From contig NZ_CP147243.1 of NCBI RefSeq assembly GCF_037198285.1, positions 124,001 to 188,000 of the forward strand: DNA of 64,000 nt. Direction: 5' to 3'. Below, in pieces: positions 41,678 through 46,130 of this stretch. Source of the stretch: Haladaptatus sp. DJG-WS-42. Its GTDB lineage: Archaea > Halobacteriota > Halobacteria > Halobacteriales > Halococcaceae. The first letter of the stretch is position 1. Each line of letters opens with the position of its first letter. The notes beneath the pieces are model-generated. The model was not told the origin of the DNA. It worked only from the letters and a program-made list of their open reading frames with translations, and did not search any database. The position numbers and the translations under genes were made by a program.

Positions 41678-44182
41678 ATGAGTTCTGACGTACCTGCTGA
41701 CGAGCCTGCAGAGATTCACTCGACCGTCCTCATAGAGGACGAAATGGAACAGTCCTACATCGACTACGCGATGAGCGTCATCGTCGGTCGTGCCCTTCCT
41801 GCCGTCGAAGACGGCCTGAAACCCGTCCACCGACGGATTCTGTACGCGATGCACGAGATGGGGCTGTCGAGTGGCTCTAGCCACCGAAAAGCCTCGTCCA
41901 TCGTTGGCCAAACGATGGGTAACTACCACCCACACGGCGACAGCGCAATCTATGACGCGCTCGCCCGGATGGCACAGGACTTCTCGCTTCGCTATCCACT
42001 CATCGACGGGCAGGGGAACTTCGGGTCGATAGACGGCGACCCACCGGCCGCCATGCGGTATACGGAAGCGCGGATGAGTTCTATCGCAGAGGAACTCCTT
42101 TCTGACATCGAGAAGGACACGGTTGACTTCTCGGGCAACTACGACGACCGCCTGCAAGAGCCAGATGTCCTTCCATCGGCCATTCCAAACCTCCTGCTCA
42201 ACGGGTCGTCCGGGATTGCTGTGGGAATGTCCACGAACATTCCGCCGCACAATCTGGGCGAAGTCATCGACGCAACCGTCGAGCTCATCGAGAACCCCGA
42301 GGCAGACGTCCAAGACCTGATGGAGTACGTCGAAGGGCCGGACTTCCCGACCGGAGCCAACATCGTTGGCCGCCAAGGCATCTACAACGCCTACACGACC
42401 GGCCGGGGTCGCCTGCGGGTTCGCGCCGAGTTCGAGGTCGAGGAGAACGAGAAGGACCGCGACCGCATCATCATCACGGAGATTCCGTATCAGGAGAACA
42501 AGTCGCGACTCATCGAGCGGATTGCGGACAACGTAAACGACGGCACGATAGACGGCATTTCGGACCTTCGGGACGAATCCGACCGCGAAGGGATTCGCGT
42601 CGTCATCGAACTCAAGCACAACGCGAACACGGACATCGTTCGCAACCAACTGCTCGAACACCACCTTGAGTCCACCTTCGGCGTCATCAACCTCGCGCTG
42701 GTCGATGGCCAGCCGCGCATCCTGACGCTAAAGGAGATGCTCGTCCACTACTTAGAACACCGCAAAGACGTCGTCCGGCGGCGTTCTGAGTACGAACTGA
42801 ACGAGGCAGAAGAGCGCGCCCACATCTTGGAAGGGCGCCTGATTGCCTTAGAGAACGTTGAGGAAGTCGTCGAGACAATCCGCAACTCAGAAGACCGCGA
42901 CGCGGCGAAGACCGGGCTGCAAGAGAACTTCGAACTCTCCGAAAAGCAATCTGAACACATCGTTCGGATGCAACTCGGGAGCCTCACGTCGCTCGAAGCC
43001 CAGGAAATCGAGACGGAGTACGACGACGTACTCGAAACCATCGAGCGCCTCGAAACCATCCTCGGCGACGAGGACGAGTTGCTCGCCGTCATCAGGGGCG
43101 AACTCCTCGCCATCAAAGACGAGTACGACGACGACCGCCGCACCTCAATCGTCGAGGATTACGGCACGGTCACGCACGAAGACCTCATCCCACAGGAGGA
43201 CGTGCTGGTCGTCATCACGGAAGACGACTACGTCAAACGCATGCCCGTAAACCGCTTCGACGCTCAGGGTCGCGGCGGGAAGGGAATCATCGGGACGAAT
43301 CTCAAAGAAGGCGACCGGGTTTCGAAGGTGTTCATGGCGAACACCCACGACTACCTGCTCGCCTTTACGAATCAGGGACAGGTCTATCAACTGAAGACCT
43401 ACGAGATTCCAGAGGTCGGCAGGACGGCACGGGGGAAATCCGCCGTCAACCTGCTCAAACTCGACAAGGGTGAGGAGATTACGGCTGTCGTCAACACCGA
43501 CGACTTCTCAGAAGAGGAGTATCTCACCTTTGCCACGAAACACGGCTACGTCAAGCGAACGGGTGCGGACAACTTCACCAACATCCTCTCGACGGGGATT
43601 CGCGCCATCCGCTTAGAAGACGGCGACGAACTCGTGGACGTCGAGATTACGGACGGTAAAGCAGACCTCCTGATTGCGACGGCGGGCGGCATGTCCATTC
43701 GGTTCGAGGAGACGGACGCTCGCGCTATGGGCCGCACCGCCCGTGGGGTAAACGGCATCAAGCTCTCGGGCGACGATACGGTCGCCGGACTCATCGCCGC
43801 AGACGAGTCCGCAGACCTACTGACCGTCACCGAGAACGGCTACGGCAAGCGCACGCCAATCAGCAAGTATCGCACCCAATCGCGCTACGGCAAGGGCCTC
43901 ATCGACATCAAGACCAACGAGCGAAACGGCGAGGTCACCGCCATCAAGGCGGTCTCCGACGACGATGACGTCGTCGTGATGAGTGACGATGGCCAGATTA
44001 TGCGCACCCACGTCGCAGACATCTCGGAGGTTGGCCGCAACACGATGGGTGTCATCGTGATGCGTCTCTCCGACGGCGACAAGGTGGCGAGCGTTGACGT
44101 GATTCCACCGCTCGACGCACGCGACGGCGCAAAAGATGACGAAGAAGACGAGGACGCAGAAGAAGTGGAAGCCGACGAGTAA
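41678..44182 (+). CDS. gyrA: DNA gyrase subunit A
   Basis: 834 residues. The active tyrosine is Tyr128 (AMRYTEARM), quinolone-site residues lie around 80-90 ([13 protein letters not shown]), and the GyrA-box QGRGGKG at about 529-535 marks the C-terminal wrapping domain, so this is gyrase and not topoisomerase IV. The last 20 residues are almost only Asp and Glu. It begins directly after gyrB and belongs to the same operon. TrpB follows 64 bases later with its own promoter. Length is normal. Confidence 0.97.
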
Positions 44183-44208
44183 GCACCCGGCAACCGCTGT
44201 CGCTGACC

Positions 44209-44233
44209 ATACATTTTTGTGCACTGTTGTACA
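44209..44233 (+). promoter_or_regulatory. trpB promoter with two TRP-box-like sites
   Basis: TATA-like tacatttt (about 44209-44217) lies 30 bases before the trpB ATG. TGTGCA at 44218-44223 and TGTACA at 44228-44233 follow, spaced ten bases start to start, i.e. on one DNA face and between the TATA box and the expected transcription start. TGTACA is the known TRP-box consensus of the TrpY repressor of Methanothermobacter. Sequence seen directly; regulation inferred. Confidence 0.55.
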
Positions 44234-44246
44234 TTGGCTTGCTACC

Positions 44247-45416
44247 ATGCAACACAATTCGGGAGACAATCCGGGCAAATTCGGCACCTTTGGCGGCCGA
44301 CACGTTCCAGAACCGCTCGAAGAACCACTCGCACAGTTGGGAGCGGCGTTCGACGAGATTGCGAAGTCGCCCGAGTTCAGAGCCGAGTTCTACGACCTAC
44401 TCACGAAGTACGCGGGCCGTGAGACGCCGTTATATTACGCCGAAAACCTTTCTGCAGCGTACGGCGCAGACATCTATCTCAAACGCGAAGACCTGCTCCA
44501 CGGCGGGGCACACAAAATCAACAACGCGCTCGGACAGGCGTTGCTTGCGAAGAAGGCGGGGAAAACGCGGCTCATCGCGGAGACGGGCGCGGGCCAACAC
44601 GGCACGGCGACCGCCATGGTCGGTGCACTGTTCGGCCTTGACACCGAGATTTACATGGGGAAAAAGGACGTCGAGCGCCAGAAGATGAACGTCTTCCGGA
44701 TGCGACTCATGGGCGCGACGGTGAACGAGGTCACCCGTGGCGGGTCGGGGCTCGCAGACGCCGTCGACGCCGCGCTCGAAGACTTTGCGGGGAACATGGA
44801 CGACACGCACTACCTCGTTGGCTCTGCAGTCGGGCCAGACCCGTTCCCCCGGATGGTGCGCGAGTTCCAGTCCGTGATAGGCGAGGAAGCGCGCGCTCAG
44901 ATACTCGACCAAACTGGGAGCCTGCCGGATGCGGCGGTCGCCTGCGTCGGCGGCGGGTCGAACGCGATTGGCCTGTTTCACGCCTTCCGCGACGATGATG
45001 TGACATTCTATGGCGGCGAAGGCGGTGGCGAAGGTGGAGATTCGAAGCGTCACGCCGCGCCGCTCGCGGCGGGGAAAGACGGCGTCATCCACGGGATGGC
45101 CACGCGCGTTATCGAAGATGACGTGGAAGTCCACTCGGTCTCTGCTGGACTCGACTATCCGGGCGTCGGCCCCGAACACGCCATGTTCCGGGCGGTTGGC
45201 CGGTGTGAGTATCGCGCCATCACCGACGACGAAGCCATCGACGCCTTCCGGACGCTAAGCGAGACAGAAGGCATCATTCCGGCGCTCGAAAGCAGTCACG
45301 CGCTCGCCCTCGCAAAGCAAGTTGCTGCCGACCACGATACTATCATCGTCAATCTGAGCGGCCGTGGTGACAAGGATATGGAGCAGGCTGCCTCGTTGCT
45401 CGACCTCGGCGCATAA
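44247..45416 (+). CDS. trpB: Tryptophan synthase beta chain
   Basis: 389 residues from the ATG at 44247 (an in-frame extension runs back into gyrA and is rejected). The PLP lysine is Lys90 in GGAHKINN, the catalytic Glu lies in AETGAGQHG, the phosphate-binding loop is GGGSNAIG and the end shows [10 protein letters not shown]. It condenses indole and serine to tryptophan. The N-terminus [15 protein letters not shown] is of the TrpB1 type that pairs with TrpA. No trpA or other trp gene is adjacent in this window, so this is a detached copy; trp operon genes may be elsewhere. Own promoter with two TGTRCA boxes. Confidence 0.95.
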
Positions 45417-45635: not shown

Positions 45636-46130
45636 ATGCCACTGGACAAAAACCGGTTTAACGACCTCTGGGGGAATCTCAACGACGTCCTCGAGGAGTT
45701 TATCGAACCGCCCGATGGTGAACGCGAGTTGGGCGACGAGGAGCCACAGATACGTGACGAGCAGGCAGCACCAACCGCTGAATCACCCACTGAATCGCCG
45801 CTCGACCAGTTGATATCGAGCGAGTCAAAGTCGAAGGCGGAAATCGTCCTCGAAACCGGGATGACGCCACAAGAACTGCTCATCGAACTGCTCGATGAGT
45901 ACGATGGCAAGATGCGCCAACAGCAGGTCGTGAATGCGACGGGGTGGTCTGAAGCCTCCGTGAGTCGCCTCCTCACGAAGATGGAGCACGCAGAACAGAT
46001 CACTCGGGTGCAGATTGGCAACGAAAAAGTCGTCTTTCTCCCAGACCACGTCCCTGACGCGGCCAAACACCCCTTCCAGCGAATTGCAGATGAGGAGATC
46101 CGTCGAGAGAGAATCGTAAACCGGAGTTGA
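45636..46130 (+). CDS. Winged-helix transcriptional regulator (MarR-like, DUF7343 type)
   Basis: 164 residues from the ATG at 45636; the upstream extension is not coding-like. The first 70 residues are polar and acidic. A winged helix fills about 85-150: ELLIELLDEYDGKMRQQQVVNATGWSEASVSRLLTKMEHAEQI is helix 1 to recognition helix, and TRVQIGNEKVVFLPD is the wing. Such haloarchaeal proteins are regulators, some membrane-anchored, but this one has no hydrophobic segment. The leader contains a palindrome that could be its own operator. It is convergent with the arginase gene, five bases apart. Confidence 0.8.
   Translation: MPLDKNRFNDLWGNLNDVLEEFIEPPDGERELGDEEPQIRDEQAAPTAESPTESPLDQLISSESKSKAEIVLETGMTPQELLIELLDEYDGKMRQQQVVNATGWSEASVSRLLTKMEHAEQITRVQIGNEKVVFLPDHVPDAAKHPFQRIADEEIRRERIVNRS

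Follow-up and report, generated by a model that had tools for sequence, protein, structure and literature searches.

Phased TGTACA-type boxes before a second trpB gene of Haladaptatus: a probable trp operator shared with the trpD and trpC promoters of haloarchaea

Introduction

TGTACA, reportedly established by Xie and Reeve in 2005, is said to be the TRP-box consensus of the TrpY protein in Methanothermobacter thermautotrophicus, where a separate trpB gene (trpB2) is reportedly among the TrpY targets. The promoter considered here resembles that system in the TGTACA consensus, in the presence of several boxes per promoter, in its trp targets, and in the inclusion of a separate trpB gene. It differs in that the boxes form strict 10-bp arrays, the gene encodes a second TrpB1 rather than a TrpB2, and no divergent trpY gene lies beside trpB.

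Three further systems invite comparison. A trpB1 within the operon together with a second trpB1 outside it (the 'i1_o1' gene content) has been described for Natronomonas pharaonis, and the same arrangement is found here; that paper does not appear to treat the promoter (PMC1854888), whereas the copy described here carries a putative trp operator. In Thermococcus kodakarensis, the regulator Tar (TK0271) ties trp to other aromatic genes, a link that may have its parallel here, but Tar belongs to a different protein family and activates its targets (PMC6737238), unlike the repressor proposed below. In Halobacterium salinarum, LrpA2 (Trh1) has been proposed as a regulator of aromatic amino-acid genes and is strongly induced when these amino acids are missing (PMC4162585). 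No paper linking TGTACA boxes to haloarchaeal trp genes was found in the open-access literature. A TRP-box operator is of a known kind and, as far as that literature shows, new for haloarchaea.

We analyzed a window of 64,000 nucleotides from the archaeon Haladaptatus sp. DJG-WS-42 (contig NZ_CP147243.1, positions 124,001 to 188,000), to which all unqualified positions refer, and compared its trpB promoter with those of other trp genes in the same genome, in other haloarchaea, and in other classes of the phylum.

Results and discussion

The genome consists of one 2.78-Mb contig with three trp units, trpCBA, trpDFEG, and the trpB gene of the window. In the first unit, trpC-trpB-trpA are followed by the genes that encode 2-amino-3,7-dideoxy-D-threo-hept-6-ulosonate synthase and 3-dehydroquinate synthase II. 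The second unit stands apart from trpCBA, and in it trpE lies downstream of trpD. The trpB gene of the window (44247..45416, plus strand) encodes a tryptophan synthase beta chain of 389 aa that scores 548.6 bits against TIGR00263 (curated cut-off 392.45), which places it in the TrpB1 type, and that is 53% identical to the TrpB of the trpCBA operon. Its 5' neighbor is gyrA (41678..44182, plus strand), whose stop codon is separated from trpB by 64 bases that must hold the promoter, and which also precedes trpB in two other species of the genus. A gene for a DUF7343 winged-helix protein (45636..46130, plus strand; Pfam PF24034) follows on the 3' side. It was set aside as a candidate regulator: it is adjacent to trpB in all three species of the genus and not in the other genera checked. 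Second trpB genes occur in many haloarchaea and are mostly 66–82% identical to that of the window. The argument of the earlier note that trpB is detached and hence needs its own tryptophan control fails, because the trpB of the window is a paralogue and the trpCBA unit elsewhere in the genome is intact.

The promoter reads, in order, gaccatacatttt-TGTGCA-ctgt-TGTACA-ttggcttgctacc-ATG, with the trpB ATG at 44247. Box 1 (TGTGCA, 44218..44223, plus strand) starts at -29 from the ATG and departs from the consensus at one position, and box 2 (TGTACA, 44228..44233, plus strand) starts at -19, so that the two are 10 bases apart from start to start and 13 bases separate the end of box 2 from the ATG. 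A TATA-like stretch, TACATTTT, lies at 44210..44217 on the plus strand, recognized by its sequence and by the position expected from haloarchaeal promoter spacing, and transcription would start a few bases 5' of the ATG. The letters and coordinates of the boxes, their 10-base step, and their place between the TATA-like stretch and the ATG are therefore as first described. The boxes also match the TRP-box consensus, as the earlier note proposed. Its suggestion that a repressor bound there would obstruct RNA polymerase agrees with this layout, given the predicted start sites, and TBP/TFB could be obstructed as well. A weaker third box may exist in the same 10-bp register at -39 (CATACA, 44208..44213, plus strand); it overlaps the TATA-like stretch, has two mismatches to the pair pattern and is tentative, and GGTACA is found at -39 in three Halococcus-type promoters (L372, L374, and L375). 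Two features tie this promoter to the other trp units of the same genome: box 2 and its flanks form ten letters, TTGTACATTG, common to the trpB and trpD promoters, and box 1 at -29 occupies the register of the first trpC box. The -9 box that trpC promoters have is lost in trpB. No bacterial-type promoter, terminator, or Rfam element was found in the trpB leader.

The boxes are no more abundant than chance predicts, whether single hexamers or pairs are counted, and their number carries no argument: TGTRCA is present in 32 copies in the window, where 28.2 would be expected, and TGTRCAN4TGTRCA with at most one mismatch has 13 matches in the whole genome against 14 for a reversed control pattern. 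The case rests on placement and conservation. Such counts would also suit a different reading, in which the trpB pair is a chance match and trpB is constitutive. Placement speaks against it. The pattern TGTACN4TTGTACA with at most one mismatch matches the 2.78-Mb genome at nine distinct places, three of which lie just upstream of trpDFEG, trpCBA, and the trpB of the window. If each promoter is given 50 bases, 0.0005 of the nine places would be expected to fall in the three trp promoters (P about 2e-11). By the time of this calculation the pattern had been modeled on the trpB and trpD sites, so that the value overstates the surprise and the trpC match is the one fully independent case within the genome. 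The best of the nine places, TGTACG-aatt-TGTACA-ttg, lies about 32 bases 5' of trpD, and the trpC promoter of the same genome reads TGTACA-AATC-AGTTCA-TCAT-TGAACA-ACA-ATG. Two other sites were noted in this genome. TGTACTATCTTGTACC at G000:C1:381926-381941 (L210) abuts the start codon of a gene that looks to be of the SBDS type and is probably a chance match, and TGTGCATGTGTGTGCA at G000:C1:1258015-1258030 (L008), 35 bases 5' of a 199-aa gene, may be a simple GT-rich stretch.

Independent of this within-genome P value is the conservation of the boxes before trpD and trpC throughout the class. The trpD promoter consensus (n=50), CTTAAGTnGATGTACGnATTTGTACATTACAAGACGAAnnCGTACATTGG, places its boxes at 0, +10, and +30, downstream of a TATA-like CTTAAG, and is degenerate at +20. 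In the trpC promoter consensus (n=42), CGCAAGnCTTATGTACAnATCAGTnCGTTAnTGTACAATAATG, the boxes start 29, 19, and 9 bases ahead of the start codon. The first trpC box lies at -29 in 29 of the 42 promoters and at -26 or -32 in 11 more, a 3-base offset that would be expected if the start codon were called differently. Information content is generally higher in the box columns than in the spacers. Promoters were scored with a matrix built from the trpD and trpC promoters of other genera, the own genus being left out, against a null of random sequences with the neighbor composition of each promoter. On this scale 48/50 trpD and 42/42 trpC promoters exceeded 99% of the null, figures that are partly circular because the matrix comes from the same kinds of promoters. 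Pattern searches with a reversed control are free of this circularity. In 145 genomes of the class, TGWACNNATTTGTACA had 48 matches in 46 genomes, compared with one for the reversed control; 44 of the 48 are found no more than 80 bp upstream of trpD, most often at a distance of 32 or 33 bases, and 43 of these 44 have the same orientation. The triple pattern TGTACAN4TGTACAN4TGTACA with at most two mismatches occurred at about 66 places in 60 genomes and nowhere in the control, and the matches that were placed belong to trpC apart from a few (tryptophanase, a symporter, and one trpB). One triple-box match lies inside a long frame (L352), and one match of the TGWACNNATTTGTACA search lies in G091 (C32). 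These trp promoters carry more than one TGTACA-type box over the TATA box or the predicted start site, in keeping with the control by tryptophan that the earlier note had suspected.

Second trpB promoters are another matter. The suggestion that the pair is conserved before haloarchaeal trpB genes generally does not hold: 12 of 155 second trpB promoters exceed 99% of the null (1.6 expected), several of the 12 come from related genomes, and a TGTRCA pair with 10-bp spacing is absent from most of the 155 stand-alone promoters. The pair is kept within the genus and is weaker in Halococcus. G124, another species of the genus and close to the source genome with 78% identity at third codon positions, has TGTGCA at the same place and differs at one of the 45 bases that precede the ATG. 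In G315, a third species, third codon positions are only 58% identical and the flanks have diverged, but TGTTCA-tcgt-TGTACA stands at exactly -29 and -19 behind the same gyrA gene, and 31 of the last 45 positions before the ATG are identical. Box 2 is TGTACA in all three species. In the sister genus Halococcus (a label resting on G309, which matches Halococcus thailandensis without a single difference across 4161 bases), boxes such as GGTACA-catt-TGTGCG at -39 and -29 are weaker and in register. Other second trpB promoters mostly lack the pair, which suggests that one family acquired or retained the operator at its second trpB, whereas in the two trp operons it is a constant feature. Separately, TGTGCAGTAGTGCACA and TGTGCAGCAGTGAACA stand upstream of second trpB genes at L047, L052, and L165 (genus g3 and a Halodesulfurarchaeum MAG), and these boxes possibly represent an independent gain of the operator.

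The absence of the pair from most other second trpB promoters fits the chance-match reading, just as the genome-wide counts do. On the other side, that reading would leave unexplained the ten letters and the register that this promoter shares with the trpD and trpC promoters of the same genome, the persistence of the boxes in G315 despite its low identity at third codon positions, and the P value given above, and we regard a fortuitous match before a constitutive trpB as very improbable.

A few box arrays precede genes other than those of the trp operons. A tryptophanase gene (NF009709, 630.6 bits) has triple boxes upstream at L354 and L358 (genus g5), at about 1501-1526; this type of site was found in three genomes of one genus, two of which were read. 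Its boxes lie upstream of the TATA-like stretch, unlike those of the biosynthetic promoters. A gene for an SNF-family sodium symporter (PF00209), possibly a tryptophan transporter, has triple boxes that extend to the start codon at L343 and L345 (genus g10), also at about 1501-1526. These positions would fit activation of tryptophan breakdown and repression of uptake, respectively, and, judged from gene families, both targets appear to make sense for tryptophan and to support the assignment of the boxes to a trp operator. A triple box also stands directly before trpB at G021:C39:47075-47100 (L090), where the gene, 57% identical to the trpB of the window, seems to head its unit.

The sample from outside the haloarchaea comprised 20 trpE loci from other classes of the phylum. 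Three of these loci have spaced boxes at the start of trpD and one at the start of a trpC-like gene; all four belong to a single family that, from genome size and gene order, we tentatively regard as Methanosarcinaceae-like. One further locus possibly has boxes before trpE, and the remaining loci of the 20 had none at the threshold used. The sites in the methanogen-like loci are L330 10995, L331 11281, L332 6000, and L333 1894. Boxes in such loci suggest that the operator may predate the haloarchaea.

Taken together, the same phased boxes before trpD and trpC throughout haloarchaea make a tryptophan regulon by far the best reading of the trpB pair. We put a probability of about 0.78 on the two trpB boxes being the core of a trp operator that is bound by a tryptophan-responsive regulator and shared with trpDFEG and trpCBA. 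The boxes probably form a real tryptophan on/off switch, and by analogy the protein bound to them is most likely a tryptophan-responsive repressor acting like TrpY. Such a regulator would bind TGTACA-like boxes exactly one helical turn apart, the 10-bp steps placing the boxes on one face of B-DNA and lining up neighboring subunits. The bound array would span the promoter from TATA box to start site, and the regulator, with tryptophan bound, would keep off TBP/TFB or polymerase. Repression could thereby shut off trpB, trpDFEG, and trpCBA together, along with the two first genes of the aromatic pathway that lie behind trpCBA, and the second trpB would have joined a regulon already governing the two trp operons. 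Repression is the proposed sign of control because in Halobacterium all seven trp genes, along with three Na+-dependent transporters, rise in the absence of aromatic amino acids (PMC4162585). The boxes, their spacing, their register, their presence at all three trp units, and their conservation are observed directly in the genomes; the regulator, its ligand, and the direction of control are inferred.

As to the protein that reads the boxes, TrpY is the natural candidate, since its TRP box is TGTACA. TrpY homologues have also been reported in haloarchaea (PMC6737238). If a true TrpY orthologue were responsible, haloarchaea would share the Methanothermobacter system itself, and the identical consensus and target genes and the arrays before trpD in Methanosarcinaceae-like loci are consistent with this. 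However, no divergent HTH regulator gene lies beside the trpB of the window, where gyrA is found, or beside trpD of the same genome, and an HTH protein encoded 5 kb from a methanogen trp operon, not known as a TrpY, has no match in the source genome. TrpY homologues also need not have a trp role, as in Thermococcus, and the function of the haloarchaeal branch cannot be estimated (PMC6737238). A TrpY orthologue is a candidate that we put forward tentatively. The interpretation in the earlier note is partly supported: its functional guess is right in kind, and TrpY may be the reader.

Lrp proteins bind helically phased sites. A member of the Lrp/AsnC family, for example an orthologue of Halobacterium LrpA2 (Trh1), would suit such arrays, and it may be considered slightly less likely than TrpY. 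The source genome has seven Lrp-type genes above the family cut-off, and lrpA2, the proposed regulator, rises 14.9-fold without aromatic amino acids (PMC4162585). Against this reading, no Lrp gene is linked to any trp unit of the source genome, and none of the seven has convincing boxes in its own promoter; a search for Lrp genes flagged by such boxes accordingly gave no convincing candidate. Gene neighborhoods in methanogens led to an XRE-type protein encoded near a trp operon (L330), which had neither a match in the source genome nor a close structure and was discarded.

A further candidate is a relative of O6-methylguanine methyltransferase that lacks the catalytic cysteine. In the source genome, this Ogt/MGMT-like DNA-binding protein is encoded divergently from trpCBA (G000:C1 about 2139821-2140321, minus strand; L002:194-694). 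Such a gene lies beside trpC in 32/45 loci, always in divergent orientation, and its product keeps the DNA-binding domain PF01035, while the catalytic PCHR has become PDHR in nearly all copies that cover the motif and PSHR in one. It is absent beside trpC in the other 13 loci although the boxes are kept there, for which reason the gene may be a bystander, and its role as the reader of the boxes is rather unlikely. Less likely still is the wider proposition of a class-wide phased-box regulon that covers tryptophan synthesis, uptake, and breakdown and is read by this repurposed relative of a DNA-repair enzyme instead of TrpY.

Conclusions

The operator common to nearly all examined haloarchaeal trpD and trpC promoters, which the second trpB of Haladaptatus probably shares, offers bait for finding the regulator, and it also provides a reporter for tryptophan control and a well-delimited set of targets. 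Tryptophan-inducible expression tools in this group may be concerned as well, the tryptophanase promoter of one genus carrying the same boxes. With an operator defined by sequence, the control of tryptophan synthesis in haloarchaea becomes directly testable.
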